64,000 nucleotides of DNA, taken from the NCBI GenBank assembly GCA_017416805.1, contig JAFQBB010000036.1:124001-188000 (forward strand), read 5' to 3'. The notes below the pieces were generated by a model that did no database searches, was not told the origin of the DNA, and worked only from the letters and a program-made list of their open reading frames with translations. Of this stretch, positions 225 through 46,137 are shown one piece after another; within the stretch, counting starts at the first letter, position 1, and each line of letters begins with the position of its first letter. This DNA comes from Bacteroidaceae bacterium. Lineage in GTDB: Bacteria > Bacteroidota > Bacteroidia > Bacteroidales > Bacteroidaceae. The position numbers and the translations under genes are program-made.

Positions 225-1154
225 CTAAATAGTAAATACCTCATACCTCTCCAAGGCATCCTGCAACATCTCTTTAATCTTCTTCACCAGCCATTCAGGT
301 TCGAGTACCTGCAACTGGTTGCTACGGCTCAACACGTGGCTACAGAAGTCGGACGTGGCGTGCATCCTCAGTTCAAAATCAGCATATCCCTCCCCTTCTC
401 CTATCTCTTGTTGGCTGGCATGTATAGGCAGGTCGCGCACGTAGAAACGTTCGTTGCCGTGTGCTCTGACCACAATCCGTTCAGCCTCCGTATCGCGACT
501 TAGCAATATGCCGTAATAATCCCTGAACAGTTCCTTGGCACTGAAGTCGGCAGGCAAGTCATACCGTATGTCCGTCAAGGCAATCTCCTTGATGCGGTCG
601 AAGGAATAGATGCGGAAGTTGTCACCCTCCATGCCATCATCGTGCAACCGGCCGAACACATACCAACGCCTCTTGAACAGCTTGATGCAATATGGTTCCA
701 ATGTTACCGTCTTCGGTTCTGCATGTCCATATTTCTGATATTCCATACTCAAGCATACCCGTTTCTTCATGCCTTCTATAATCTGCTCCAACCGTGTGCT
801 TTCCGAGGGGATAGATTCCAATAATATACGGTCTTGCAACGATAGGCTCTCGCTCACCTGATTGCTCACCGACAAGGTGGAGAGCATCCAGTTCTGTACC
901 GATTCCTCTGCCAGCACCCCTTCGTTGCCTATGTAGTAGCGGTATCCGTCTTGGCGGTCACACTCAATATAGATGCCGAATATGTCCTCAATGGCATCCT
1001 TGTGGCGGTTGAAGGTAGCGCGTGCCAGCTCTACCCCTTCGCTCATTTCCGTGTCGAGCCACTTCTTTTGCAATTCTGCGAAAGAGATTCTGCCCGCCTT
1101 GCGTATAGTGTTCACCAACCAGATGTATTCCTTGAATTTTGCCGATGTTTTCAT
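225..1154 (-). CDS. WYL-domain transcriptional regulator
   Basis: About 309 residues. The start is set at the ATG read from 1154 (MKTSAKFKEYIW), because an upstream in-frame start would lie on top of the -7 box at 1191-1198. Residues 1-80 look like a winged-helix/HTH region (YIWLVNTIRKAGRISFAELQ). Residues about 130-200 carry the WYL sensor core, seen as EPYCIKLFKRRWYVFGRL, where the signature WYL is replaced by RWYVFG. A C-terminal extension follows. WYL regulators are known to sense nucleic-acid ligands and often control defence genes. A palindromic operator at 1256-1274 lies between it and the divergent small gene at 1335, and the same operator recurs at 5767 and 9831. It is therefore the natural candidate for the cognate regulator; this is inference. 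Confidence 0.85.
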   Translation of the reverse strand: MKTSAKFKEYIWLVNTIRKAGRISFAELQKKWLDTEMSEGVELARATFNRHKDAIEDIFGIYIECDRQDGYRYYIGNEGVLAEESVQNWMLSTLSVSNQVSESLSLQDRILLESIPSESTRLEQIIEGMKKRVCLSMEYQKYGHAEPKTVTLEPYCIKLFKRRWYVFGRLHDDGMEGDNFRIYSFDRIKEIALTDIRYDLPADFSAKELFRDYYGILLSRDTEAERIVVRAHGNERFYVRDLPIHASQQEIGEGEGYADFELRMHATSDFCSHVLSRSNQLQVLEPEWLVKKIKEMLQDALERYEVFTI

Positions 1155-1190: not shown

Positions 1191-1198
1191 CAAAGGTA
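1191..1198 (-). promoter_or_regulatory. -7 element of the WYL regulator gene
   Basis: On the minus strand the bases read TACCTTTG, a perfect TAnnTTTG Bacteroides -7 box, giving a predicted start of transcription near 1184 and a leader of about 30 nt before the ATG at 1154. The 19-bp operator at 1256-1274 lies about 70-90 bp upstream of that start. Confidence 0.7.
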
Positions 1199-1255: not shown

Positions 1256-1291
1256 TGTCCCACAATTTGAGACAACACGCAGATAATTTTG
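1256..1291 (+). promoter_or_regulatory. WYL-linked palindromic operator plus -7 box, copy 1
   Basis: The 19-bp dyad TGTCCCAcaattTGAGACA (1256-1274; 6 of 7 arm positions pair) is followed 10 bp later by the -7 box TAATTTTG (1284-1291). The same operator and -7 box at the same spacing occur at 5767-5802 and, on the minus strand, at 9849-9814. The operator covers about -42 to -24 of the predicted transcript, where a bound protein would block the -33 region or contact polymerase. It sits between the WYL gene and the divergent gene at 1335. Confidence 0.75.
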
Positions 1292-1334
1292 CAGAGAAAT
1301 TAATAAAAACATTAACGGTTAAACAATTATAGAC

Positions 1335-1613
1335 ATGAAAACTTTCATCGAAATCAGCCAGCCGTCAACCGGGAAAATCTTCACAAACCAAGTGGTCAAT
1401 CTCGTGTCATTCATCCAAGCTGTATGGAGCAAGAAACCTGTATTGTCCAAGAAAAACACCATCGCACTCGCTTTCCTCTTCTTTGTTTGCATTGCACTCT
1501 ATTTTGGCTGTACTATCTTTTCCATTATCATAGTAGCCCTATTTCTGATTTCATTAGGGATGGTCATCAACGAAATGATCCAATATATCCGCCTCATTCG
1601 CGAATTGGAGTGA
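1335..1613 (+). CDS. Small two-helix membrane protein, unknown function
   Basis: 92 residues. A polar N-terminal third (MKTFIEISQPSTGKIF, then a basic stretch WSKKPVLSKK) is followed by two closely spaced hydrophobic segments, roughly residues 43-62 and 64-80, and a charged tail. No signal peptide or recognised domain. It is the first gene downstream of operator copy 1 and is transcribed divergently from the WYL regulator. A second small double-helix membrane protein (9554-9766) carries the same operator. That suggests coregulated membrane-acting products, but no homology between the two proteins is evident. Confidence 0.65.
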   Translation: MKTFIEISQPSTGKIFTNQVVNLVSFIQAVWSKKPVLSKKNTIALAFLFFVCIALYFGCTIFSIIIVALFLISLGMVINEMIQYIRLIRELE

Positions 1614-1755
1614 ATAAGGATTCTTCATTGATGGGACAGACAGGAATTTTATACAATCATCAGAATGCAGTAAATAAAGACTGTATCCTCAAAATACTAT
1701 TGTTTTACTCGATAGACAATAGCTCTTATCACATTAGAAGTACCTTCTGAATAAC

Positions 1756-1865
1756 CTCTTCACAGCTGTGAAGACATCTCTTGACATCTGTGAAGAGATC
1801 TCTTGACAACTGTGAAGACATCTCTTGACAACTGTGAAGAGATCTCTTCACAGCTGTGAAAAGGT
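1756..1865 (+). repeat. Five-unit 22-bp dyad repeat array
   Basis: Five head-to-tail units start at 1756, 1778, 1800, 1822 and 1844. Each begins CTCTT and contains ACAnCTGTGAAG. Outer units hold the perfect palindrome TTCACAGCTGTGAA, inner ones near-palindromes. The complete array is itself an inverted repeat, flanked by ATAACC on the left and GGTTAT on the right. It lies in the 363-bp gap between the convergent genes at 1335 and 1977. Three other arrays in the window have the same period but different sequence (25966, 35634, 47632). Confidence 0.85.
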
Positions 1866-1976
1866 TATAAGAAACATACTTTTATCGTATAAAGGTATAT
1901 AGAAAGGTGGGTTAATGATATACTTACCCCTCCAACATTTAATTAAAGTAAAGCCTTCATCCTACGTCCAGACATT

Positions 1977-2585
1977 TCAACGCACCAACGAAACCATCTT
2001 CCGCAACTCACGTTCATATTGCCGTGCATCGGTGAAGACAATGCCCTTCATGCCCACGCGCCTGCCACCCTCGATGTTCTCTGCCCTGTCGTCCGCGAAG
2101 ATGCACTCTTCGGGCTTCAGGTTGAACCTGTTGAATAGCCGGTGATAGATTTCCGCTTCGGGTTTGATGACCTTTTCCTCGGAAGAGATGATGTAACCGT
2201 CAAGAAGTTTGAAGATGTCAAACTGGGCCATGGTCAGATATACCTTACTGCACCAGTTGGTGAGGCCATAGAGCTTGTACCCCTCCCCCTTTAACCGGAT
2301 GAGCAGTTCGCGCATCCCCTCCACTTCGTTAGTCACAATCTCGGGATAATGCTCATCGAAAAAGCGTATTTCCGCCTCAAACTCCCTGTTTTGGCAGATA
2401 ATCTCTTCAATGATTTCATCCACCGGGCGCTCCTCCCGGTCGAATATCCGTTGTATCTCCACATTGTGAAGCACCGGCGTAAAAGCCCGACACCTCTCTT
2501 CATCAGTAATATATCGGCGGAAAAAAGCCTCGAAATCGTAATCCACGAGCACCTTCCCAAAGTCAAATATCAGGTTCTTTATCAT
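1977..2585 (-). CDS. HAD-superfamily hydrolase (subfamily IA, YihX-like)
   Basis: 202 residues, usual length for small HAD-IA phosphatases. Motif I is IFDFGKVLVDYD at residues 5-16 (nucleophile Asp8). Motif II is the threonine in GLTN, the conserved lysine lies in KVIKPEAEIY, and motif III is IFADDRAENIEGG with its acidic pair. A helical cap lies between motifs I and II. The nucleophile is followed by F-G rather than an acidic residue at +2, as in YihX-type sugar phosphatases, so a sugar-phosphate or nucleotide phosphatase is likely but the substrate is not known. A fragment resembling its 5' end recurs at 5438-5461. Confidence 0.85.
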   Translation of the reverse strand: MIKNLIFDFGKVLVDYDFEAFFRRYITDEERCRAFTPVLHNVEIQRIFDREERPVDEIIEEIICQNREFEAEIRFFDEHYPEIVTNEVEGMRELLIRLKGEGYKLYGLTNWCSKVYLTMAQFDIFKLLDGYIISSEEKVIKPEAEIYHRLFNRFNLKPEECIFADDRAENIEGGRRVGMKGIVFTDARQYERELRKMVSLVR

Positions 2586-3057
2586 GATTGGAAATCTGTT
2601 TTTTCTGAAATCAACATAATACCATATTCTTACATCTCATTATCCGATGATTGGCCTTTTGATTATGTGTTCCATAAAGGTTCTTTTCTCCAATTTTCAG
2701 GAAACCATATGATGTATCATTTGAGTACGCAATGCTATTTCTATGCTTTGTATCGCGGTGAATACCAATGCTCTCAATTTCTTATCAAAATAATAGAGGT
2801 TTAGCGCATTTTCGAAATAGCTATTCCATCGTATAGATAGTTATAAACGTAAAAGTTCCGCCCTGGTACGCTGTTCTACGGGAAGCGTGGCGGAATTTGT
2901 TGCTGCAAATTTACTACATTATTCTTTAAATACCATCTTTTAAATGTATTATTTGAGCAAGTAGTGTGAAATTCGGGTAATATGCTTCATATTTCAAGTG
3001 ATAACGGAGATATACAGCATCTTTTCAAGAACTCTTACCCCTTTCCATGCGAGTCAC
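2586..3057. other. Non-coding stretch with a hairpin at 2853-2898
   Basis: No convincing gene is seen between the HAD gene and the HTH relic. A perfect 9-bp pairing plus flanks, AAGTTCCGCC (2853-2862) with GGCGGAATTT (2889-2898), forms a stem around a 26-nt loop, of the sort seen in intergenic palindromes. The remainder is AT-rich with no repeat or domain that I recognise. Confidence 0.4.
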
Positions 3058-3068
3058 TTTTGTTATGT

Positions 3069-3268
3069 TCAGATGCCCATCTTCTCATCGGTTTCTCCTT
3101 GTGTGAGTCCTTTGGCAAGTTTGGCTTGCTTCAATGCTTCTTTTGCATGGTATGCCTCTATTTCCGCTTTGACCTTTTTTCGTAATCATCACGTTCAGGT
3201 GTACCTATCTTTCCAATGTGCTTGTCCTCTATTTCTTCAAGGGTATAAATTTTTCTAATGCTTGCCAT
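3069..3268 (-). pseudogene. Frameshifted, truncated HTH gene relic (copy 1)
   Basis: On the minus strand an ATG at 3268 opens MASIRKIYTLEEIEDKHIG, continuing as KIGTPERDDYEKR before a one-base deletion relative to copy 2 (two instead of three C at about 3169-3171, plus strand) shifts the frame into a stop. The remaining sequence matches the gene at 5458-5658 almost base for base, including its abnormal end inside the helix-turn-helix (LTQGETDEKMGI). About 200 bp (3058-3254) is repeated directly at 5454-5650. It is a decayed duplicate of an XRE-type antitoxin-like gene already truncated before duplication. Confidence 0.75.
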
Positions 3269-3400
3269 GCAAAGAGATATTCATTCTCCCCCCCCCCTTA
3301 CTACTATGCGAATTGAATTCGAGGAACGTAAGATATGGACGGAACAGAAGGATAAATGAAAAAATATGCCTGTTTTGCACGAACTTTCGCTAAGAAGAGC

Positions 3401-3408
3401 TATCTTTG
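3401..3408 (+). promoter_or_regulatory. -7 element of the DUF3791/DUF3990 cassette
   Basis: TATCTTTG matches the TAnnTTTG -7 consensus and lies 26 bp before the ATG at 3434, giving a leader of about 20 nt. It is the only promoter visible for the three overlapping genes that follow. Confidence 0.65.
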
Positions 3409-3433
3409 CAATCGGATATAGCATTATTAATGT

Positions 3434-3682
3434 ATGATAAACCAACAAACCGATACGTATCGAAAGCTCCATTTTGCAGTGATGGCAATCGAAGCAAGTG
3501 CAAAGAAGCAAAGGATTAGCGGACGGAAGATGCACGAACGTCTGAAATCACAAGGCTTGATTCATGAACGCTTGTTCCGCCACTACGAAATGTTGCACAC
3601 ACAAAGTTTGGAATGGGTTGTTGATGACACCATTGAAACTCTGAATAATTGGGAAAAAGAAAGCGAGGAGGCAAAACAATGA
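3434..3682 (+). CDS. DUF3791 domain protein, first of cassette
   Basis: 82 residues, mostly helical and charged. The pattern FAVMAIEASAKKQRISGRKMHERLKSQGLI fits the DUF3791 family: a helix, a short basic turn and the 'L..G.I' motif. These small proteins are usually encoded next to DUF3990 genes in Bacteroidetes and Firmicutes, in a toxin-antitoxin-like arrangement. Its stop overlaps the ATG of the DUF3990 gene (ATGA), so translation is probably coupled. A role as antitoxin or partner is inferred only from gene order and size. Confidence 0.7.
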   Translation: MINQQTDTYRKLHFAVMAIEASAKKQRISGRKMHERLKSQGLIHERLFRHYEMLHTQSLEWVVDDTIETLNNWEKESEEAKQ

Positions 3683-4194
3683 AAAAACTATATCACGGTT
3701 CATATATGCCAATAGCAGAGCCTTTGGCTAAAGCTGGACGAAAGAATCTGGATTTCGGTCAGGGCTTTTATCTCACAAGTATCATGGAGCAAGCCCAAGC
3801 ATGGGCAACAATCATAGCCGGAAGAAAAGGAAGAAACAGAAGGCCTGTGGTGAGTTCATACATATTCAACGAAAGCGCAGCAAAGGCTGATGGCATTCGC
3901 TTTAAAATATTTGAAACGTACAATCTTGAATGGCTGAATTACGTGGTAGATTGCCGAAATGGGAAAGATATTTCTGCTGATTATGATATAGTTGAAGGTG
4001 GTGTAGCCAATGACAATGTTATTGACACGGTGGAAGATTATGAAAAAGGAATTATCACTGCAGAACAAGCATTAGGGCAGTTGCGTTACAAAAAAGTAAA
4101 TCATCAGATATGCATACTTAACCAATTTGTAATTGACAAATATCTGAATTTTATTGAAAGTGTGACACTAAATCTGGAGGAGACGAAACAATGA
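3679..4194 (+). CDS. DUF3990 protein, ADP-ribosyltransferase-like
   Basis: 171 residues with the start at MKKLYHGSYMPI, chosen because it overlaps the preceding stop as ATGA. An upstream in-frame start at 3649 would lie inside the first gene. Near the N-terminus are YHGS (His in the first strand) and LDFGQGFYLTSIMEQAQAWA (Tyr in the second block). These correspond to the first two elements of the H-Y-E class of ADP-ribosyltransferase folds, in which DUF3990 is placed. A late acidic residue completing the triad is not obvious. Between two DUF3791 genes, it is the probable toxin or effector of the cassette. A fragment resembling its C-terminal FVIDKYL recurs at 5409-5427. Confidence 0.7.
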   Translation: MKKLYHGSYMPIAEPLAKAGRKNLDFGQGFYLTSIMEQAQAWATIIAGRKGRNRRPVVSSYIFNESAAKADGIRFKIFETYNLEWLNYVVDCRNGKDISADYDIVEGGVANDNVIDTVEDYEKGIITAEQALGQLRYKKVNHQICILNQFVIDKYLNFIESVTLNLEETKQ

Positions 4195-4400
4195 GAGATT
4201 CTGTTTTATGGAGAAAACAGAGCCATGTGATAATGATGTTAGCCGAAACACTTCAGATAGACGCTGAACGTGCCTTAGACTTATATTATTCAACAGAAAC
4301 CTGTTTGCAATTAGCAGACCCAATGTCTGGGCTTCAATTGATGAGCGACCAATATATCGTGGAAAACATATTGGAGGAGTTGAGACAATCCGCATACTAA
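4191..4400 (+). CDS. DUF3791 domain protein, second of cassette
   Basis: 69 residues (MRDSVLWRKQSHVIMMLAETL then a Leu/Tyr-rich helix and QLMSDQYIVENILEEL). It resembles the upstream DUF3791 protein in size, in the leading helix that carries a small hydrophobic core, and in the terminal D/E-rich helix, but is clearly diverged. It overlaps the DUF3990 gene by ATGA, so the three genes form one translationally coupled unit. Two different DUF3791 partners around one DUF3990 suggests either a tripartite module or a paralogous duplication. Confidence 0.65.
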   Translation: MRDSVLWRKQSHVIMMLAETLQIDAERALDLYYSTETCLQLADPMSGLQLMSDQYIVENILEELRQSAY

Positions 4401-4444
4401 GACGACTTTATAGCTATCCAACATTTCTCTTTCTTCCTTATTTC

Positions 4445-4509
4445 TTGCCGATAACGGCAAAAATCGCTATATTTGCACCCGAAAATGGAATGAAAACTTG
4501 CCGATAAAG
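4445..4509 (+). promoter_or_regulatory. Promoter and operator of the Fic gene
   Basis: A 16-bp near-perfect palindrome TTGCCGATAACGGCAA (4445-4460) is followed by a -7 box TATATTTG (4468-4475) and then a second half-site CTTGCCGATAAAG (4497-4509) just ahead of the ATG at 4517. Sites on both sides of the start of transcription are typical of autorepression. The Fic protein's own N-terminal HTH is the likely binder. A decayed copy of the full block lies at 9993-10067. Confidence 0.7.
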
Positions 4510-4516
4510 GAATTGT

Positions 4517-5401
4517 ATGGATTATATTTCAGTTGGAGAATTTGCCGCAAAGTATGGCATATCGGAACGCACCGCACGCAACTATTGCGCTACGGGGAAG
4601 ATTGAGGGAGCTTTCCTCATGGGGAAAACTTGGAATATCCCGAACGAGGCTACCCTGCCCTCACGAAAGAGCCATAAAACGCCTCCTTTGCTGACCCTCC
4701 TGCGCCAACAGAAGGAGAGCGGAATCAAAGGGAGCATCTATCACCGTACGCAGATTGACCTCACCTACAATTCCAACCACATGGAGGGAAGCCGCCTGAC
4801 GCACGAACAGACGCGCTACATCTTTGAGACAAACACCATCGGTATGAACACGGGAGAGAGCATGAACGTGGACGACATCATCGAGACGACCAACCACTTC
4901 CGATGCATCGACCTCATCATCGACCATGCGACAGAGAAATTGACTGAAACTTTCATCAAGGACTTGCACTACACGCTAAAAAGCGGAACCTCAGACGCCC
5001 GTCGGGAGTGGTTTGCCGTGGGCGACTACAAGCGCCTTCCCAACGAGGTTGGAGGAATGGAAACAACTCCTCCTGACCGTGTGCACGCAGAAATGAAAGC
5101 TCTACTTACCGAATACAACGGAAAGAAGCAGAAAACACTGGAGGACATCATCGACCTGCACCAACGCTTCGAGGCCATCCATCCCTTTCAAGATGGCAAC
5201 GGACGTGTAGGCCGTCTGCTGATATTCAAGGAGTGCCTGGCCACGGGAGAAATTCCCTTCATCATCACCGACGATCTGAAGATGTTTTATTACCGTGGCC
5301 TCCAGCAATGGCCTCACATCAAGGGTTATCTGATGGACACCTGCCTGACGGCCCAAGACCGCTACAAGGAGTTGCTGGACAGGATGGGGATAGCTTATTA
5401 G
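4517..5401 (+). CDS. Fic family protein with N-terminal HTH
   Basis: 294 residues. Residues 1-45 are a small DNA-binding domain of the excisionase/MerR type (ISVGEFAAKYGISERTARNYC). Residues about 84-92 contain SNHMEG, matching the (S/T)xxxE(G/N) inhibitory helix of self-inhibited Fic proteins, here N-terminal to the core. The catalytic motif HPFQDGNGRVGR at about 219-230 is complete (HxFx[D/E]GNGRxxR), so AMP transfer from ATP to a protein hydroxyl is expected once inhibition is relieved. The combination of HTH and upstream palindromes points to autoregulation. GC content is higher than in the neighbouring DUF3990 cassette, which suggests a separate origin. Confidence 0.88.
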   Translation: MDYISVGEFAAKYGISERTARNYCATGKIEGAFLMGKTWNIPNEATLPSRKSHKTPPLLTLLRQQKESGIKGSIYHRTQIDLTYNSNHMEGSRLTHEQTRYIFETNTIGMNTGESMNVDDIIETTNHFRCIDLIIDHATEKLTETFIKDLHYTLKSGTSDARREWFAVGDYKRLPNEVGGMETTPPDRVHAEMKALLTEYNGKKQKTLEDIIDLHQRFEAIHPFQDGNGRVGRLLIFKECLATGEIPFIITDDLKMFYYRGLQQWPHIKGYLMDTCLTAQDRYKELLDRMGIAY

Positions 5402-5403
5402 TT

Positions 5404-5461
5404 TCGAATTTGTAATCGACAAGTACCTCCTCTCAAGGTCAAATATCAGGTTCTTTGTCAT
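5404..5461. pseudogene. Junction scar made of gene fragments
   Basis: Just after the Fic stop the plus strand encodes FVIDKYL (about 5409-5427), the same as the C-terminal region of the DUF3990 protein. It is followed directly by 5438-5461, whose minus strand reads MTKNLIFDL, near-identical to the start of the HAD gene at 1977-2585 (MIKNLIFDF). The truncated HTH gene abuts it. These are remnants left by recombination or loss of formerly neighbouring genes. Confidence 0.55.
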
Positions 5462-5658
5462 GTGCAGATGCCCATCTTCTCATCGGTTTCTCCTTGTGTG
5501 AGTCCTTTGGCAAGTTTGGCTTGCTTCAATGCTTCTTTTGCATGGTATGCCTCTATTTCCGCTTTGACCCTTTTTTCGTAATCATCACGTTCAGGTGTAC
5601 CTATCTTCCCAATGTGCTTGTCCTCTATTTCTTCAAGGGTATAAATTTTCATTTCCAT
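5458..5658 (-). pseudogene. Truncated HTH (XRE antitoxin-like) gene, copy 2
   Basis: About 66 residues from MEMKIYTLEEIEDKHIG to LTQGETDEKMGICT. The N-terminal half resembles XRE regulators partnered with RelE-type toxins (IYTLEE...IGKIGTPERDDYE), which are normally near 100 residues. Here the protein stops within the helix-turn-helix, where 'LTQEELAEKMGI' would continue, and lacks the recognition helix. No toxin gene adjoins it. Its minus-strand -7 box TATCTTTG at 5700-5707 is intact, so a short product may still be made. Nearly identical to the frameshifted copy at 3069-3268. Confidence 0.65.
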
Positions 5659-5766
5659 AGCGCATCTGGTTACTTTCACATTTATAATAATGTTATGTGC
5701 AAAGATAGTGATTTTTGTATGCGAAAAAGCACTTTTTTCTTCATTTTCGCAAAAAAAGTCTGAGAC

Positions 5767-5802
5767 TGTCCCACGATTTGGGACAAGCTACCGATAATTT
5801 TG
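5767..5802 (+). promoter_or_regulatory. WYL-linked palindromic operator plus -7 box, copy 2
   Basis: The perfect dyad TGTCCCAcgattTGGGACA (5767-5785) is followed 10 bp later by TAATTTTG (5795-5802), the same arrangement as at 1256-1291 and 9849-9814. The spacer between operator and -7 box (AGCTAC at its start) is also shared with copy 3. It drives the HIRAN-domain gene at 5834. Confidence 0.78.
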
Positions 5803-5833
5803 CCCACAAATTCATTTCTAAACATTAGTAATT

Positions 5834-6193
5834 ATGAAAGCAAAGAAGTTATTTTTTATGGAGTGCCATTTGGCAGGGCGGAAGTATCATGATGCCGACG
5901 AAGTGTGGGAAGAGCTGAAAGTGGGTACCAAACTTAAACTTGTACGCGATGCCGACAATCGCCACGACCCCGATGCCGTAGCCGTAGTGTATGAGAAACC
6001 CTGCAATGATTGTGAATCTGAAGGCGAGGAATATTTGCTCGGATACATCCCTTGTGATGAGAATGAACAGATAGCATTGTTATTCGATGCCGGATGGTCA
6101 GAGATTTTCGAGTGCCGAATCAACAAAATCAATCCTGAAGCTCATCCCGAAAACCAGATAAGGATTACTATTCGGGTAAAGAAGAGGGAATAA
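5834..6193 (+). CDS. HIRAN domain protein
   Basis: 119 residues, essentially one HIRAN domain: an N-terminal strand with ECHLAGRKYHDADEV, then LKVGTKLKLVRDADNRHDPDAVAVVY (the characteristic G-x-L-x-L-x-R-x-x-x-N-x-x-D-x-x-A-V core) and YLLGYIP. HIRAN domains bind 3' single-stranded DNA ends, for example in HLTF at stalled forks. Stand-alone bacterial HIRAN proteins occur near phage and defence genes. A short acidic/Cys insertion (CNDCESEGEE) is unusual. It is controlled by operator copy 2. Linking a DNA-end binder to a WYL regulator, a class known to respond to DNA ligands, suggests a DNA-damage or invasion response; this is inference. Confidence 0.82.
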   Translation: MKAKKLFFMECHLAGRKYHDADEVWEELKVGTKLKLVRDADNRHDPDAVAVVYEKPCNDCESEGEEYLLGYIPCDENEQIALLFDAGWSEIFECRINKINPEAHPENQIRITIRVKKRE

Positions 6194-6236
6194 GGAGGAT
6201 TCATTAACATTACTAACCTAAAATATATTACGAATT

Positions 6237-6551
6237 ATGTACAGAGGAAGAAGAAATATAATGCGTTTGGAAGAGTACAATGCTAAACGTGCAGAACATA
6301 TCAAATATAAAATAGATGCAACATTTGTTGCATTTACAGAACTTGAGGATATTATAAGCAAATCACAATTATCTTTTCAATATTTTGATGAGTCTGAAAA
6401 ATGGGTGTCTGAACGTGTTGATGCCTGTATGTTATTGAAAAAAGATTTAGCATTTAATGAAAAAGAATTTCATCAGTTGGCCGAAGCATTCAGAGATATA
6501 GCGCAGAGGCTTCAAGCACATGCGGATGAAATAGATGCAGCTGAGTTTTAA
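6237..6551 (+). CDS. Hypothetical helical protein downstream of HIRAN gene
   Basis: 104 residues from the ATG at 6237; an alternative ATG at 6261 (MRLEEYNAKRAEH) is equally possible. It is almost wholly predicted helix, charged, with no signal peptide or membrane segment and no domain I recognise. It follows the HIRAN gene by 43 bp in the same direction without a clear promoter of its own, so it may be the second gene of the operator-controlled transcript. Confidence 0.55.
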   Translation: MYRGRRNIMRLEEYNAKRAEHIKYKIDATFVAFTELEDIISKSQLSFQYFDESEKWVSERVDACMLLKKDLAFNEKEFHQLAEAFRDIAQRLQAHADEIDAAEF

Positions 6552-6590
6552 TTCAACTTTTACAAGTGATTTGTTTGCATGATGTCTCTG

Positions 6591-6675
6591 TCATTCTGAG
6601 CCTTAGCGAAGAATCTGATAACGTCAGCACTGTTACTTTTTGCTTGTGTTTACAGATTCTTCGCTTCGTTCAGAC
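6591..6675. repeat. Imperfect inverted repeat
   Basis: TCTGAGCCTTAGCGAAGAAT (from 6595) is matched in inverted form by CAGATTCTTCGCTTCGTTCA (from 6653), around a spacer of about 35 nt. The arm resembles widely scattered intergenic palindromes of the 'CATTCTGAGCGAAGCGAAGAATC' type. It lies in the gap before the HD gene and may act as a terminator for the HIRAN transcript. Confidence 0.5.
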
Positions 6676-6789
6676 GAGTTGTTGAGGACTTCGTCCTTAA
6701 AATATTTTGAAAGAGAACGGATTTTAATTGATGTGCAGATAAAATGTGACTTTCTCAATGAAGATTTATACATTGAGCAAATAATTATA

Positions 6790-6797
6790 TATATTTG
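6790..6797 (+). promoter_or_regulatory. -7 element of the HD hydrolase gene
   Basis: TATATTTG, a TAnnTTTG match, lies 43 bp before the ATG at 6841. Confidence 0.6.
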
Positions 6798-6840
6798 CAG
6801 ACAATTGATTTTAATAACTTAAACAACAAAAGAAATTACG

Positions 6841-7275
6841 ATGATTACAATTGAAGACGCATTACGCATCGCCATTGAAGCACATGAGGGACAGAAAGAC
6901 CTTGACGGAAATCCTGTGATTCTGCATCCTCTTACGGTGGGATTGGCTGGCCATAACCGTGAAGAGATTGTGGCAGGCCTGCTTCACGATGTGGTGGAAG
7001 ATACGGATTTCACCTTTGAGGAATTGCTTAAACGAGGGGTGGATGAGAGCATTGTGGATGCCCTACAACTATTGACACACTCGAAAGATATACCTTACAA
7101 TGAATACGTTGAGCATATTGCCCAATCAGGAAACGACGTGGCTATTCATGTAAAATATAATGACCTTTGTCATAACCTAAAACGTGGACGTGCAGGAGGA
7201 CATTGGAAAATTGTAAGTAAGCACGAAAAAGCATTGGCTATAATTGAACCACTTGTGCAGAAGTGTGACATCTGA
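6841..7275 (+). CDS. Small HD-domain phosphohydrolase (alarmone hydrolase-like)
   Basis: 144 residues. Metal-binding features of the RelA/SpoT-MESH1 HD fold are present: HPLTVG near residue 28, GLLHDVVEDTDFTFEEL at about 47-63 (HD plus the ED catalytic pair), and KYNDLCHNLKRG at about 103-114 (the D-x-x-x-N element). There is no synthetase, TGS or ACT domain, so it would only hydrolyse (p)ppGpp or a related nucleotide. The length is somewhat shorter than MESH1-type small alarmone hydrolases. Its location inside the accessory region could mean a role with toxins or defence, but it may be an ordinary housekeeping copy. Confidence 0.75.
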   Translation: MITIEDALRIAIEAHEGQKDLDGNPVILHPLTVGLAGHNREEIVAGLLHDVVEDTDFTFEELLKRGVDESIVDALQLLTHSKDIPYNEYVEHIAQSGNDVAIHVKYNDLCHNLKRGRAGGHWKIVSKHEKALAIIEPLVQKCDI

Positions 7276-7356
7276 TTTTATAAAAGAACAGCTCTCCGTA
7301 ATTTATTTGCGATTTTTTCTTGTTGTATCATAATATTTTTAATATATTTGCAACGT

Positions 7357-7453
7357 GAAGTCTGTAGGCTGGACGGACAACCGTCGGTCTTCTTCGGGCA
7401 TTAAGTTGTCGGCTTCACCGAAAGCGTAGGGGTTGCTCCCCTGATGCTTTTTA
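7357..7453 (+). ncRNA. Small structured RNA gene with promoter and terminator
   Basis: A perfect -7 box TATATTTG (7343-7350) predicts a start near 7357. The RNA can fold with GTGAAGTC (7355-7362) pairing GGCTTCAC (7411-7418) and GACAAC (7376-7381) pairing GTTGTC (7405-7410), two stems stacked end to end. It ends in a terminator hairpin: GCGT-AGGGG (7424-7432) with CCCCT-g-ATGC (7438-7447), followed by TTTTT-A-TTTTT. About 97 nt. No open reading frame of note, and the following gene is on the other strand, so this is not a leader. I do not recognise a named family; it is not SRP RNA, tmRNA or RNase P RNA. Confidence 0.7.
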
Positions 7454-7646
7454 TTTTTATGCATACATGTAATGACTATTGAACGTTTTCGCAATTCTAC
7501 GATAATAATAGATGCTGCTGAGTAAAAATACAATTATGGTTATATCCTAATTGATTTATGAATCTTTGTTTTTGCAAATAAATGAAATGCCCTTCTCTCC
7601 TAATACTTTAATCTTAGAAATAAGAGGAAAAGGGCATTCGTTTTAA

Positions 7647-9452
7647 TTACAACGAATAATAATATTCTTTCAATCTTTGAGCTATCAATTTCCTACGTTG
7701 TTCAAGGAATATAGGGTAATCTTCAAGTGTCATTGAAACTAAGTCAAGAGGTAGGCAACAATCATTTATCAAATTTGAACGCAAAGAATCATGATCAATT
7801 ATTCCTCCGTATTTTGTTTCTCCACCGCAACATTGCACATCATGTACATAACCTAAATATTCTTTAGGAGCCTTTTTCCCTATCTGAATATTGATTTCTG
7901 TTTGGGTATAGATATAATTTGCAACTTGATTATAATCCGCACGTGTCAATCCTTTTGATTTCAAATATTCACGAGGGAAAATGTGATGAACATCTCCCTT
8001 TTGCTCAATCATATTTTGAACAGTAATAGCAGTAGATAAGAAACCCTTACGATTTTGGAAACATTGTGAAGCTAAAAACACATTGAAGACAGGGCTACTT
8101 GCTACAGAAGTATTTAATTGTTGAATTGCACCAAAATCCCAATAAGCATCTGAAAGCTCTGCCGCCTCCACTTCTTTCAAGTATTCTCCAAAATCGGAAT
8201 GTTTGTCAATTTGTTTGACATCGTAATCAAAATTACTTTCGGGAGAACCACTATATCGACCACGTAATATTGAATATACAAACCATCTGCGTACATACTT
8301 TTCTATCAGTTCAGGTTTATACCCTTTCTCTCGTAATTTCAAGAAAAGAATATATGCAAAATTCAGTGTGTTTTGAGAGCGTATTAATTTTGTATGACAA
8401 AATCCTGCTGAACGAATTATCATAATGAAACGTTTGAAGTTCGTTTCATTTATAAACGAGCAAACACCTTCTGTCAATTTTTTATATGCATCTTGTTTGA
8501 TTTCTTCTTCAAAGTTTCTTGTTTCAAAATTGCGTCCAGATAACAAACTTACCAAATCTCCCATCTTTCCTCTATTGAACTTCGCGGTAAATGCTACACG
8601 CAATATATCTACGTATGAAGGGTCGTATATATCATCATTTTCCTTTCGTAACCATTCAACCTGTTGACAATATTCTGATTCAGCAAATTCTTTATCGTTC
8701 TTTAATAGTATAGAATAGAATTCAGGACGTACGGCCAATTCACTGAAATGATCAATACATTTCCGTAACATATTTCCGCCATACACTTCATTTGCTGCAA
8801 TTGTTGACATAACAAAATCTGCTTGATTCAGAGGAACTCCTTTACTATTGATTCGAATAAAGATTTCTGTTACTCGTTCAATGTCAAGATTTCCAGACAA
8901 TTCTATAACACCTATTTGTTTGCTTAGAATTTCTTTTAATGCTTCCACGGCTTCATCCACAATGTCTTCATCGCAAGACGGATTTAAAGCACAATATTCT
9001 TTGCGGATTGCACTTTGCTTTTTGTTTCCATTCAGTATGGGAGCTATGTCTTTTATCCATGTAGGGTCTTTTGCTATAGCGGCATTTAAAGTGGCAAATT
9101 TACGTTCTACTGGATGATATGCTACTTGTATGCTTGTATCCGCATAATCTTTATTCTTTACCATTTCTCCTAATATAGCAGTACGCAATGCCGTAATACG
9201 TTGCTGACCATCTATCAAAATTTTCTTGCCTGCGGAACTGTTGCCATCCTTGAGTTTTACATTGGGACTTTGCCATGTAATAATGTAACCTATCGGAAAT
9301 CCGTTATAAAGACTATCTATCAATTCTGTTACTTTATCATGTTCCCACACAAAGGGACGTTGGATTTCGGGTATTGCAATTTCACCCAATTGTACCATAC
9401 TAAGCAAGTTTGACACCTGCAGTTGACTAACTGAATAATTTTGATTTTTCAT
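7647..9452 (-). CDS. DUF262/DUF1524 protein, GmrSD-like nuclease
   Basis: 601 residues. The N-terminal DUF262 domain shows the family's EIQRPFVWEHDKVTELIDSL and LIDGQQRITALR (residues about 80-91); DGQQR is the ParB-like nucleotide-binding/hydrolysis motif. Near residue 495 lies GDVHHIFPREYL, and a later Asn (QVANYI), the His-Me finger (HNH) nuclease core of DUF1524. This GmrS-GmrD fusion is the architecture of modification-dependent, NTP-using type IV restriction enzymes, active against phage DNA with modified cytosines. A minus-strand -7 box TAACTTTG lies at 9484-9491. It is a solitary gene without a methylase. Target specificity unknown. Confidence 0.85.
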   Translation of the reverse strand: MKNQNYSVSQLQVSNLLSMVQLGEIAIPEIQRPFVWEHDKVTELIDSLYNGFPIGYIITWQSPNVKLKDGNSSAGKKILIDGQQRITALRTAILGEMVKNKDYADTSIQVAYHPVERKFATLNAAIAKDPTWIKDIAPILNGNKKQSAIRKEYCALNPSCDEDIVDEAVEALKEILSKQIGVIELSGNLDIERVTEIFIRINSKGVPLNQADFVMSTIAANEVYGGNMLRKCIDHFSELAVRPEFYSILLKNDKEFAESEYCQQVEWLRKENDDIYDPSYVDILRVAFTAKFNRGKMGDLVSLLSGRNFETRNFEEEIKQDAYKKLTEGVCSFINETNFKRFIMIIRSAGFCHTKLIRSQNTLNFAYILFLKLREKGYKPELIEKYVRRWFVYSILRGRYSGSPESNFDYDVKQIDKHSDFGEYLKEVEAAELSDAYWDFGAIQQLNTSVASSPVFNVFLASQCFQNRKGFLSTAITVQNMIEQKGDVHHIFPREYLKSKGLTRADYNQVANYIYTQTEINIQIGKKAPKEYLGYVHDVQCCGGETKYGGIIDHDSLRSNLINDCCLPLDLVSMTLEDYPIFLEQRRKLIAQRLKEYYYSL

Positions 9453-9553
9453 GATTGTAGTTTTGTTACATTGGTATTGGCGGCAAAGTTAATAAGAAAT
9501 TATGAGAAAACCGTTTTCTTTTTCATTTCTATATCCCCTTTGTCCCCTCCATC

Positions 9554-9766
9554 CTATTTTGTGTCATTTTTTGATTCGTTTCGGTTTGACATTGCAACAA
9601 TGAAGGCAATGATGAAAAACGCGGCTATGAGACCGAGGATAACCCATACCAATACTGGGTCGACTACAAATTGATAGATCAACCATAAAATTAATACTAT
9701 TGTCCAAAACAACTGTGGTCTGAAAAAGAACAGATAAGTAGCCCATAATGCCAAAAGTGCTGTCAT
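9554..9766 (-). CDS. Small two-helix membrane protein with WYL-type operator
   Basis: 70 residues: a short aromatic N-terminal segment (ALWATYLFFFRPQLFW), two hydrophobic helices at about 18-36 and 38-60, and a charged tail NRNESKNDTK. An unusually strong ribosome-binding site AGGAGG (9779-9774, minus strand) lies 7 nt from the start codon, rare in this genome. It is transcribed from operator copy 3. Function unknown. Its size and regulation pair it with the small membrane protein at 1335. Confidence 0.65.
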   Translation of the reverse strand: MTALLALWATYLFFFRPQLFWTIVLILWLIYQFVVDPVLVWVILGLIAAFFIIAFIVAMSNRNESKNDTK

Positions 9767-9813
9767 ACGAAAACCTCCTATTTCTTTAATTAATTAATTA
9801 ATGATTTCTGATG

Positions 9814-9849
9814 CAAAATTAGAAGTAGCTTGTCTCAAATCGTGAGACA
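9814..9849 (-). promoter_or_regulatory. WYL-linked palindromic operator plus -7 box, copy 3
   Basis: Read on the minus strand, TGTCTCAcgattTGAGACA (9849-9831; perfect 7-bp arms) is followed 10 bp later by TAATTTTG (9821-9814). Spacing is identical to copies 1 and 2, and the sequence between operator and -7 box starts AGCTAC as in copy 2. It drives the small membrane protein gene at 9554-9766. An AT-rich TTAATTAATTAATTAA run lies in the leader. Confidence 0.78.
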
Positions 9850-43602: not shown

Positions 43603-46137
43603 TTATCGGACAATCATCTTTTTGCCGTTTATGATGTAGATACCGGCTGGAAGTTCCTCCTTAATGTTCTCTACAGGAATCTGTGTCTTTATGCGTACAC
43701 CTTGCAGGGTATAGACGTCAACGGGTTTGGTTGGAGCACTGGAAGTTCCGCTCAATACCTCTTTGATGCCGCTTACTTCCTCAAGGAAGAAGAAGTCCCT
43801 CCATTGGTCTGCAGCCTGATAAGCCGCTTTGCTTCCTTCAACGACTTTCAGCGTACAGTTCCACTTGTTGATGTCGTCCAGTGCCTGTGTGCCGCATGTG
43901 GGAGGCACGGTGGCCAGACTCGTCAGTTGCGTCATGTTCGTGCAATCCGAGAATGCCTCCTGTCCGATGCTCGCCACATTCTTTCCGAAAGCAAAGCTCT
44001 CAAGGCTGCTACATCCGCTGAAGGCCCAGTCGCCAATGGTTGTCACTCCATTGCCTATGCTTACGTTCTTCAGTGCCGTACATCCATAGAACTCGTTGTC
44101 ATAGACTGCTTCCTCCTTGTCACCTATCACCACGCTGCGCAACGAGGTGTTGCGGTAGAAGGGCGAATACCCCTTGGCGCTCGAAGTGTTGTACGAAATC
44201 TTTCCACCGATATAGACGGAGTCAAGCGGACAGTCGGCAAACAAAGGCGAAGAGCCGTTTGAACCAAGCGTCAATGCCCCGGTGCGGTTTTCAATGATGA
44301 CATCTGCTAAGGAGGAACAGTTCTGGAAGGTATAGTTTCCGATTGTTGCTACAGAATTGGAGATGCTAATGCACGCAAGGTCTGAACATCCCATAAACGT
44401 ATTGTCTCCTATACTTGTTACCGATTGCGGAATGACGATCTTTGGTAGCGAAGAACAACCACTGAAAGCATAGTTTCCTATGGTCGATACTTTGTTACCG
44501 AATGTCACTTCCTTCAGCGATGAACATCCGCTGAATGTTTGTGGCTCAATCTTGGAGATTCCATTCCCAATCTTTAGTGCTTGGGCTGACGAACAACCAT
44601 AGAAGGCTTTGGTTGCCAAATCTTTTACAGAATTGGGGATGGTGATATTCTCCAACGAAGAGCACCCACTGAAGGCCGACTCTCCAATGCCGGTCACTTC
44701 CTCGCCAATTGTGGCAGTTTTCATCTTGGCACATCCCTCAAACGCGTTGTTCTCTATCTTTCCTTTGTTGAAAATCGTACCTTCTTTTATGCCACACTTG
44801 GCAAAAGCATTTGATGCAACGTTTCCTACATTGGTCAATGTTACGGAATTCAGATTATCGCAACCATAAAAAGCCTCTGTTCCTATATAACCATTATTGC
44901 TGGCTGTTACAGTTTGAAGGTTGTCACAACCATAAAAAGCCTTTGTTCCTATATAACCTTTATTGCTGGCTGTTACAGTTTGGAGGTTGTCACAATCATA
45001 GAACGCTTGTAGACCGATATATCCTTGATTGGAAATTATTGCTTCTTTCAAACCGGAATTAGCGAACGCATTTGCTTCTATATTTCCCATGTTGGATAAT
45101 GTTACAGTGTTCAGACTTTTGCAACCATAAAAAGCCTCTGTAGCTATATGACCTTTATTGCAGGCTGTTACAGTTTGGAGGTTGTCACAATTATAGAAAG
45201 CTTGATATGGGATATCTCCATTGTAACTGGCAGTTACATTTTTTACAAAATTATTCCCATAAAAAACATAAGGCTTGATATTCTGCACCTTCATCTCTAT
45301 TCCTTTGAAAGATACGGTTGGAGCAATAGTTACATCTGATGCAGTACTGTCATAGTTGCAACTGATGGCATCGCATGTACGTGCTGCCATATCTACAGGT
45401 ACATATTTTACCCCATCAACATCGAACATGGAGCTAAGGTAAGGATAGACTTCCACATTACTTAGTTCTGTATATTGCTCATTGGCTACATAGTTTATCT
45501 TTCCCGAAGCTTCCTTATATCCATCCGGTGGGGTATTGGTCAGCCAAATTGTCTTTGCTGGTGAGTTGTTGATATAACCTGTGATAGTTGTCACTTCCGC
45601 ACCTATGGTAAGGGCTTTCAATGGTGAATCATCAAAATTACCAAAATCCAATTCCTTTCCTTCATAGGTCAGATTAGATAAATTAGAGCAACCATTGAAT
45701 GCGTTATCTCCAATACTTGTCACAGAATTGGGGATAGTAATACTTGTAAGACCAGAGCAACCATTGAATGCGTTATCTCCAATACTTGTCACCGAATTGG
45801 AGATAGTGATGTGCGTAAGGTCAGAGCAACCATAGAACGCATAATCTCCAATGCTTGTCACAGAATTAGGAATAGTGATACTTGTAAGATCAAAGTTAAA
45901 ACTGAATGCGCTATTTCCAATACTCGTAACAGAATATGTCTTACTGGCAGACGTTACTGTATTTGGAATTATAACTGTTCCTGCATATCCATAAATATAT
46001 CCATATGTCACTTCCACCGTCGAATTCGATGTAATATTGTAATAAATTCCATCCACCTTAAAATCGGCTGCTTTCGCTGAAATACTGCACAATAGCGTGG
46101 CTATTGTAAACAGCGTGGTTTTAAATATTTTTTTCAT
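43603..46137 (-). CDS. BspA-like leucine-rich repeat surface protein
   Basis: 844 residues with a signal peptide (MKKIFKTTLFTIATLLCSISAKA). About 20 LRR_5 repeats of 23 residues follow (for example SVTSIGDNAFNGCSGLTSIT, KSLNTVTLSNMGNIEANAF), in two blocks separated at about 200-290. The C-terminus VYTLQGVRIKTQIPVEN ... LPAGIYIINGKKMIVR resembles the Bacteroidales type A/Por-like sorting tail. BspA proteins bind host matrix or other bacteria. Nearly identical DNA segments about 70 bp apart near 44860-45000 invite length variation by slippage. Third gene of an operon with 46569 and 46121. Confidence 0.88.
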   Translation of the reverse strand: MKKIFKTTLFTIATLLCSISAKAADFKVDGIYYNITSNSTVEVTYGYIYGYAGTVIIPNTVTSASKTYSVTSIGNSAFSFNFDLTSITIPNSVTSIGDYAFYGCSDLTHITISNSVTSIGDNAFNGCSGLTSITIPNSVTSIGDNAFNGCSNLSNLTYEGKELDFGNFDDSPLKALTIGAEVTTITGYINNSPAKTIWLTNTPPDGYKEASGKINYVANEQYTELSNVEVYPYLSSMFDVDGVKYVPVDMAARTCDAISCNYDSTASDVTIAPTVSFKGIEMKVQNIKPYVFYGNNFVKNVTASYNGDIPYQAFYNCDNLQTVTACNKGHIATEAFYGCKSLNTVTLSNMGNIEANAFANSGLKEAIISNQGYIGLQAFYDCDNLQTVTASNKGYIGTKAFYGCDNLQTVTASNNGYIGTEAFYGCDNLNSVTLTNVGNVASNAFAKCGIKEGTIFNKGKIENNAFEGCAKMKTATIGEEVTGIGESAFSGCSSLENITIPNSVKDLATKAFYGCSSAQALKIGNGISKIEPQTFSGCSSLKEVTFGNKVSTIGNYAFSGCSSLPKIVIPQSVTSIGDNTFMGCSDLACISISNSVATIGNYTFQNCSSLADVIIENRTGALTLGSNGSSPLFADCPLDSVYIGGKISYNTSSAKGYSPFYRNTSLRSVVIGDKEEAVYDNEFYGCTALKNVSIGNGVTTIGDWAFSGCSSLESFAFGKNVASIGQEAFSDCTNMTQLTSLATVPPTCGTQALDDINKWNCTLKVVEGSKAAYQAADQWRDFFFLEEVSGIKEVLSGTSSAPTKPVDVYTLQGVRIKTQIPVENIKEELPAGIYIINGKKMIVR

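Follow-up and report, generated by a model that had tools for sequence, protein, structure and literature searches.

A WYL regulator appears to control scattered DNA-repair, antiviral and small membrane-protein genes through a promoter-spaced operator in the Bacteroides/Prevotella group

Three operator promoters beside a WYL regulator gene

The window analysed here is a 64,000-nucleotide stretch of DNA from a Bacteroidaceae bacterium (assembly GCA_017416805.1, contig JAFQBB010000036.1), and our subject is a WYL regulator gene near its start together with three promoters that share one 19-bp pseudo-palindromic operator. The regulator gene lies on the minus strand (225..1154, ATG at 1154) and codes for 309 amino acids (aa), comprising an N-terminal DNA-binding region recognised by alignment, a WYL domain (Pfam, 8e-12) and a WCX domain (6e-10); the Pfam scan gave no match to a helix-turn-helix (HTH) domain. 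Operator 1 (1256..1274, plus strand; TGTCCCACAATTTGAGACA), operator 2 (5767..5785, plus; TGTCCCACGATTTGGGACA) and operator 3 (9831..9849, minus; TGTCTCACGATTTGAGACA) all match the consensus TGTCYCANNATTTGRGACA without a mismatch, so the three dyads reported in the original prediction are indeed present. Each is followed by the sequence TAATTTTG (1284..1291, plus; 5795..5802, plus; 9814..9821, minus), which we read as a -7 box: it conforms to TAnnTTTG, given in PMC7366714 as the -7 consensus of the Bacteroidetes sigma factor sigma-ABfr. The gap from operator to box had been put at 10 bp, but measures 9 bp at all three sites.

Operator 1 precedes the gene for a 92-aa membrane protein with two hydrophobic stretches, presumed helices (1335..1613, plus), operator 2 that for a stand-alone HIRAN protein of 119 aa (5834..6193, plus; Pfam E 4e-13) and operator 3 that for a different two-helix membrane protein of 70 aa (9554..9766, minus). 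Open reading frames (ORFs), hydrophobic stretches and Pfam thus agree with the targets first proposed, as they do with a divergent WYL gene next to operator 1. That gene has a probable -7 box of its own (TACCTTTG, 1191..1198, minus, by sequence reading), which lies about 58 bp from operator 1 and does not overlap it.

With up to three mismatches, TGTCYCANNATTTGRGACA matches the window seven times (the three operators, their three reverse readings and one more at 45718) against 0.74 expected, and none of 100 shuffles reached seven. In the host assembly (3.16 Mb, 64 contigs, 91% complete), a whole-genome search recovered six perfect operators, three of them outside the window. The 9-bp spacing is kept at all six, five boxes being TAnnTTTG and one AAACTTTG, and the regulon is wider than the three promoters originally described. 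A chance origin of the operators was rejected: the shuffles, the controls with a reversed pattern and the six perfect sites in the genome all speak against it.

Fixed geometry and association with the WYL gene

The spacing is equally strict in relatives. Searching for the dyad alone (TGTNYCANNATTTGRNACA, at most one mismatch), with no -7 box required, in 30 WYL loci (L087-L116, 489,783 bp; L numbers denote loci and G numbers genomes) gave 27 sites, about 25 of them distinct since L112 is the same as L105 and L114 nearly the same as L098, and the reversed pattern gave none. In 24 of them TAnnTTTG stands at +9, and nowhere else between -45 and +45 does it occur; the remaining three sites are L089:7581, which has no box, and those of L102 (TTTCTTTG) and L104 (TAACTTGC). 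A logo of 102 distinct promoters, picked with a profile that itself contains the box, places the operator at 1-19 and the box at 29-36, followed by CA, with A/T tracts resembling an UP element upstream of the operator (-14..-9, -21..-18 and -31..-29). The first T of the box comes 19 bp after the operator centre, and the operator hence covers the -33 region.

Operator and regulator also occur together. Among 201 genomes sampled from the family, 26 carry an orthologue of the WYL protein, defined as a match of at least 300 bits. A strict site (operator plus box, at most one mismatch) is found in 14 of the 201, with none for the reversed control, and 10 of these 14 have an orthologue; relaxed sites (at most two mismatches) are found in 67 genomes, with 10 matches for the reversed control. 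Strict sites are present in 10 of the 26 orthologue genomes versus 4 of the 175 others (P 1.6e-7), and relaxed sites in 24 of 26 versus 43 of 175 (P 2.5e-11). In an order-wide sample, TGTNYCANNATTTGRNACA-N9-TANNTTTG with at most one mismatch occurs in 8 of 295 genomes, the host included (reversed control, 1). An operator widespread in genomes without the WYL gene, which the original prediction had named as grounds for abandoning the idea, is not what we find.

Physical proximity points the same way. Sequences matching the recognition helix number 62, some being one contig fetched twice, and 43 of them are accompanied by a site scoring 15 bits or more within the scanned stretch; 30 of these 43 sites are no more than about 300 bp from the WYL gene, 22 lying just downstream on the same strand, five divergent and three facing the WYL gene itself. 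The N-terminal third of the WYL family contains a conserved stretch, [STA]TFxRH[KR]xAI, that covaries with operator bases: across 36 distinct pairs, and with 32 residue-base pairs tested and kinship uncorrected, operator base 4 varies with residue x of TFxRH (P 0.0008), and bases 4 and 16 vary with the first residue of the motif (P ~0.001). TTF[HYF]RH, for instance, pairs with TGTT...AACA in L049, L052 and L109. Co-occurrence, adjacency and this covariation between helix and operator together argue that the promoters form one regulon, probably under the WYL protein, as originally proposed.

Genes behind the operator

The most recurrent target of the operator promoters is HIRAN. A profile built from nine operator-driven HIRAN proteins matches 25 of the 201 family genomes. 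We scanned upstream of the homologues with the spacing fixed at 9 and a visually chosen cut-off, counting the element as present when no fewer than 8 of the 9 dyad letters and 5 of the 6 box letters agreed and as absent at 7 and 4 or fewer. The 15 best homologues (at least 139 bits, in frames of 116-212 aa, that of the host included) all have a dyad and box, the profile itself stemming from operator-driven members; none of nine remoter homologues, which score 46-126 bits and of which six lie in frames of 331-421 aa and three are short, has the element. Drifted forms such as TGTCCCGACTTTTGGGTCA are included, and a broken HIRAN copy in G190 likewise has the element. By coordinates, HIRAN adjoins the WYL gene in G088, G089, G120, G148, G176, G187 and G189, and lies about 0.9 kb from it in G117. 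In the window the HIRAN gene is followed by one for a DUF5053 protein (6237..6551, plus; Pfam 2.4e-16), possibly in one transcript with it, and a DUF5053 homologue, identified by its sequence start, also follows HIRAN in G151. The window HIRAN matches the PADLOC model PDC-M03B (7e-15), and its profile shows weak similarity to lp_0118 (8e-7) and to HLTF structures (0.09); DNA 3'-end binding is established for eukaryotic HIRAN, according to work cited in PMC9503650. At one locus of a close relative (L205, G123) the HIRAN frame is degenerate and the 70-aa protein diverges after about 24 residues, both operators being perfect; a gene with a sub-cut-off match to UDG comes next.

Small hydrophobic products form a further theme. 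Operator-driven homologues of the 92-aa protein, 92-93 aa in length, occur in G123, G137, G151 and L089. By crude first-ORF calling, the first ORF is hydrophobic and no longer than 100 aa at 17 of the 102 promoters versus 319 of 4586 random places, an excess that is real, if modest. Two of the three extra targets in the host genome are of this kind: a 26-aa membrane peptide, and a hydrophobic peptide of 23 aa behind which, after about 0.4 kb, come an AIPR protein (Pfam 5e-43; PADLOC AbiU 3e-28) and a 1857-aa protein with a Schlafen/AlbA_2 domain. The third is a DUF6371 protein close to methyltransferase/restriction and RhuM-Fic genes.

The remaining targets come from relatives and were named by Pfam or PADLOC unless marked otherwise; many more are without a Pfam match, and the repair and defence content that follows is a raw listing of targets with no control set. 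A UvrD-type helicase is found in G171 and, by a near-identical start, in G199, where a PD-(D/E)XK gene follows as in AddAB; a 926-aa PD-(D/E)XK protein lies next to WYL in L096. The order in G047 is WYL, operator, cas12a (1267 aa), three genes and a 33-copy array, and two further operators there precede two-helix proteins. The three genes stand in the usual place of cas4, cas1 and cas2, which from their position and sequence start we take them to be. GmrSD-DUF7834 occurs in L100, with a near-identical start in L103, and an ADP-ribosylglycohydrolase (ARG) in G141 (L072) and L092 and, by sequence start, in L093, L136 and L175. Others are a SNF2/DrmD-like protein (G193), an HTH-like small ORF followed by HsdM (G117), a reverse transcriptase (RT; RVT in G199), RtcB (G083), T5orf172 (G066), an RNase_T exonuclease (G044), DnaB_C (G062) and a serpin (G023, and G049 by its start). 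Cas9 in G063 and in G081, the latter with a 27-copy array, is a weaker case. Weaker sites precede radical SAM-HHH in G075 and a MutS-like protein in G196; sub-cut-off Pfam matches give ORF6N in G141, UDG in G123 and ASCH in G176. A family of 455-aa proteins also recurs, its members in L078 and L095 being 53% identical.

Several loci showed further details by eye. In G199 a 98-aa fragment behind an operator (L199:5172-5468) resembles the start of the 926-aa protein of L096, and the UvrD/PD-(D/E)XK pair, some 8 kb distant, has a second operator in front of it. In L156, L167 and L172 (G063, G081 and G113) the operator is followed by an opposite-strand tracrRNA-like stretch ending in a terminator and then by the start of cas9, which in G113 (L172) the sequence leaves after a few codons. 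Uncharacterised targets in L078, L095, L201:11340-11966 and L152 share an MRWN...GDRFYM-like...DEDWSG stretch, reminiscent of an EVE-like fold. Saccharopine dehydrogenase genes (L140 by Pfam, L148 and L159 by sequence start; G017, G044 and G065) have a dyad like TGTACCGCATTTTGGTACA 9 bp ahead of TAACTTTG; the geometry is equal and the metabolic gene unexpected, and we set these promoters apart as probably belonging to another regulator.

Neighbouring features

Next after the 70-aa gene in the window comes a 601-aa GmrSD_N/DUF262 protein (7647..9452, minus; Pfam 3.7e-33; PADLOC HEC-05-like, 9e-30). Its membership of the regulon is uncertain because a possible -7 box of its own (9484-9491) intervenes. 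Right after the 92-aa gene is a tandem array (1756-1860) of 4.8 copies of a 22-bp unit with CTTCACAGCTGTGAAG-like palindromes. Between operators 1 and 2, direct repeats at 3059-3253 and 5454-5649, 98-99% identical and about 2395 bp apart from start to start, enclose a Fic protein gene (4517-5401, Pfam 4e-17) and other small ORFs; this repeat-bounded cassette looks like an insertion or duplication. Elsewhere in the host genome (L007, L009, L011, L012 and L013) there are clusters of palindromic TRTCCCAAGCTTTGGGAYA / AAACCAAGCTTTGG-like units which, though matched at two mismatches, apparently bear no relation to the operator.

The WYL protein as a putative activator

What are the nearest relatives of the regulator? 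A profile search of PDB with the WYL alignment gave nine matches at 0.01, with PafBC best (2e-8) and DriD (8tp8) at 2.6e-5; no WYL regulator besides these two was named. Entries 7u02 and 7tzv, matched at 7e-6 and listed merely as WYL protein, are presumably DriD as well. BrxR, whose entries are named in PMC9122601, was absent from the PDB matches of both phmmer (0.1) and the profile search (0.01). The window protein also matches the PADLOC CRISPR-associated WYL model (1.6e-26). A phage origin was rejected, the strict operator plus box having no exact match in viral_contigs and WYL relatives there being confined to a single contig, 36% identical.

In gut bacteria of the Bacteroides/Prevotella group a WYL sensor appears, then, to control scattered DNA-repair, antiviral and small membrane-protein genes through a promoter-spaced tag. 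On balance we lean towards the view that the window WYL protein is an activator like DriD and PafBC, with a damage and defence regulon, a nucleic-acid signal and small membrane effectors. Its computed support consists of the fixed spacing, the joint occurrence and adjacency of operator and WYL gene, the covariation of helix and operator, and the kinds of target; direct binding of the operator, dimerisation, activation rather than repression, the ligand and the function of the effectors are what we infer. A dimer of the WYL protein would bind the 19-bp pseudo-palindrome over the -33 region and help the housekeeping RNA polymerase to initiate at the operator promoters. The WYL domain would sense nucleic acid, most likely single-stranded DNA (ssDNA) from damaged or phage-attacked chromosomes, a signal suggested by kinship with DriD and PafBC. 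Once active, the protein would switch on HIRAN and the hydrophobic membrane proteins and peptides, the latter as effectors of a damage checkpoint or of abortive infection; in relatives it would also induce genes of repair and defence, among them the AddAB-like pair and Cas12a. Activation is favoured over repression because the operator lies over -33, much as DriD sites lie over -35, and because the nearest solved kin, PafBC and DriD, are activators. As to the response to DNA damage or phage that had been suggested for the locus, the theme is borne out by the targets in relatives (AddAB-like, Cas12a, GmrSD, SNF2/DrmD-like, HsdM, RT and HIRAN), and the signal itself is deduced from kinship.

A number of observations weigh against this interpretation. 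Four genomes with strict sites (G066, G193, G120 and G141) have no 300-bit orthologue: G066 (seven sites; assembly 84% complete) yields by profile a 47-bit partial WYL match alone, and G193 (two sites; assembly 72% complete) yields no WYL match by profile, while G120 has 42%-identical WYL kin with profile matches of 335 and 313 bits, and G141 has more distant kin with a 322-bit profile match besides a broken WYL copy (70% over 103 aa). Conversely, G152 and G187 have an orthologue and no relaxed site was found in them. The covariation, as noted above, stands uncorrected for kinship among 32 pairs tested, and ATFHRHK in L034/L035, with operator TATATCA, violates the H/Y/F rule. An operator placed over -33 would suit a repressor equally well, and the missing -33 motif says little because this motif is weak across the phylum (PMC7366714); we have dropped for that reason the argument that its absence proves activation. 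Saccharopine dehydrogenase, the serpin and secreted proteins do not look like defence genes. In both Cas9 cases a probable promoter of the gene's own and an antisense tracrRNA-like stretch lie between operator and gene, and Cas9 was downgraded as a firm target on these grounds. Finally, the host genome has a sub-cut-off match to a LexA-like S24 peptidase and may thus possess another SOS-type system.

Alternative explanations

The same promoter architecture could be read as repression, with a WYL protein of the BrxR/CapW or ARG-system type blocking RNA polymerase until a ligand derived from phage or damage, for example ADP-ribose or a nucleotide, makes it let go. The operator spans the core promoter, many targets are defence-like, and BrxR represses a phage-defence island (PMC9122601); two points count further against activation, namely that PMC9503650 proposes ADP-ribose-sensing WYL proteins as negative regulators of ARG immune operons and that ARG genes recur behind our operators. 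Occlusion needs no exact spacing, yet 24 of the 27 unbiased sites have the box at +9; the BrxR site R-BOX1 sits downstream of its promoter, and BrxR autorepresses (PMC9122601), whereas just 3 of the 30 adjacent operators face the WYL gene. The WYL profile, moreover, finds PafBC and DriD in PDB and not BrxR. We consider a repressor unlikely, though worth keeping in view. An activator answering to a metabolite or general stress, with a regulon of loosely assorted accessory genes, strikes us as somewhat less likely again. It has a parallel in the WYL activator SiwR, the operon of which has DinB/YfiT-like products and is inducible by H2O2 (PMC10693628), and would account for the serpin, saccharopine dehydrogenase, RtcB and secreted proteins among the targets; it sits less well with the many nucleic-acid and defence enzymes in the raw listing and with the response of DriD and PafBC, the closest solved kin, to ssDNA.

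It is very improbable that the operator is bound by a different regulator and that the WYL gene is a mere defence-island neighbour. G066 and G193, both incomplete assemblies, have operators without a full-length orthologue, as such a regulator would allow, but the co-occurrence, the 30 of 43 adjacent sites and the covariation all speak against it. The LexA-type motifs reported for Bacteroidetes, CTAA-N5-TTAG and GGA-N5-TCC, belong to S24-peptidase repressors (PMC8565304) and differ from TGTCyCA...TGrGACA, and LexA was rejected as the operator's regulator. No canonical LexA above the cut-off was found in 61 genomes; weaker matches occur in 31 of the 61, the host included.

If the WYL protein is the activator we favour, a bolder extension is conceivable, though we hold it to be doubtful. 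Operator, 9-bp spacer and -7 box might constitute a portable cassette that plugs unrelated genes for immunity (Cas12a, GmrSD, AIPR/AbiU-like, SNF2/DrmD-like, RT), repair (AddAB-like) and growth-halting peptides into an ssDNA alarm separate from LexA, with HIRAN as a standing partner and co-drifting operators and helices giving insulated parallel circuits. HIRAN would perhaps work, as a repair factor or as feedback, on the very DNA 3' ends by which the alarm is set off.

An activator of this kind would provide an alarm for DNA damage or phage in Bacteroidota, a phylum that is dominant in the gut and about whose control of stress and immunity little is known; it would also bring genes for CRISPR, restriction and repair together in a single circuit that can be tested. 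The exact operator-promoter geometry makes targets predictable from sequence alone and is therefore usable for finding new defence genes; candidates are the small two-helix proteins, HIRAN and the MRWN-type proteins.

Comparison with known systems

The original prediction knew of no described system with these parts. Precedents exist, however, in DriD-DidA (PMC4211646, PMC12340889) and in the WYL regulators and HIRAN pairs of PMC9503650: DriD is already an example of a WYL activator whose damage regulon includes a small membrane protein, and WYL regulators near CRISPR and ARG genes are known or predicted. A literature search, whose coverage lay outside the preprint servers, did not find this regulon described. 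Judged by that literature, the new elements are the regulon in Bacteroidales, the precise distance from operator to -7 box, HIRAN under operator control, and the plugged-in CRISPR, restriction and repair genes.

The immune systems predicted in PMC9503650 combine ARG genes with a WYL or Nudix regulator. They resemble the present case in linking WYL regulators with ARG genes and in pairing ARPP with a HIRAN or WYL gene. They differ in that each regulator is predicted to repress a single ARG operon and that the hosts are actinobacteria, planctomycetes and proteobacteria; the main text of that paper does not contain Bacteroid*, and we noticed no operator or scattered regulon in it. No ARG gene was found among the window ORFs scanned with Pfam. 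BrxR/CapW is likewise a WYL protein beside defence genes, but BrxR is a repressor with its site downstream of the promoter, acting locally on one island (PMC9122601), whereas operator 1 lies outside the probable promoter of the WYL gene and BrxR has no match among our PDB results. The PADLOC CRISPR-associated WYL and PDC-M03B are labels for nearness to defence genes and imply no operator or regulon. The non-canonical LexA regulon of Bacteroidetes is alike as a DNA-damage response in the same phylum and unlike in repressor type and motifs (PMC8565304).

Activators offer closer parallels. SiwR of Mycobacterium smegmatis is a homodimeric WYL activator with a palindrome between -35 and -10 and a link to genotoxic stress, but it controls an adjacent operon with DinB/YfiT-like products (PMC10693628). 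PafBC, the WYL activator of the mycobacterial DNA-damage response and the best PDB profile match, works by sigma adaptation and acts between sigma region 4 and promoter DNA (PMC11804915). It is a heterodimer with a -26 element, whereas our locus has one WYL gene and a pseudo-palindrome. Both PafBC and DriD are described as responsive to ssDNA (PMC11804915, PMC12340889).

DriD of Caulobacter crescentus is a WYL activator with an SOS-independent regulon of didA, bapE, recJ and dnaG (PMC4211646, preprint PMC12340889). DidA, which it induces, is a 71-aa one-helix membrane division inhibitor (PMC4211646), and our small membrane proteins recall it, although the two-helix proteins could instead be abortive-infection effectors. 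Similarity to DriD is recognisable in the WYL/WCX half alone; the window uses a Bacteroidetes -7 promoter, and among the targets, both here and in relatives, are HIRAN and two-helix proteins as well as CRISPR and restriction genes. According to the same preprint, DriD sites lie at a single distance from -10 with the -35 at the site centre, and the DriD heads flank sigma region 4. The common ground is thus a WYL regulator, a membrane protein and DNA enzymes as its targets, and a pseudo-palindrome, of 20 bp in DriD and 19 bp here, at a set distance from the core promoter element, over -35 in DriD and over -33 here, where 24 of 27 sites stand at +9.

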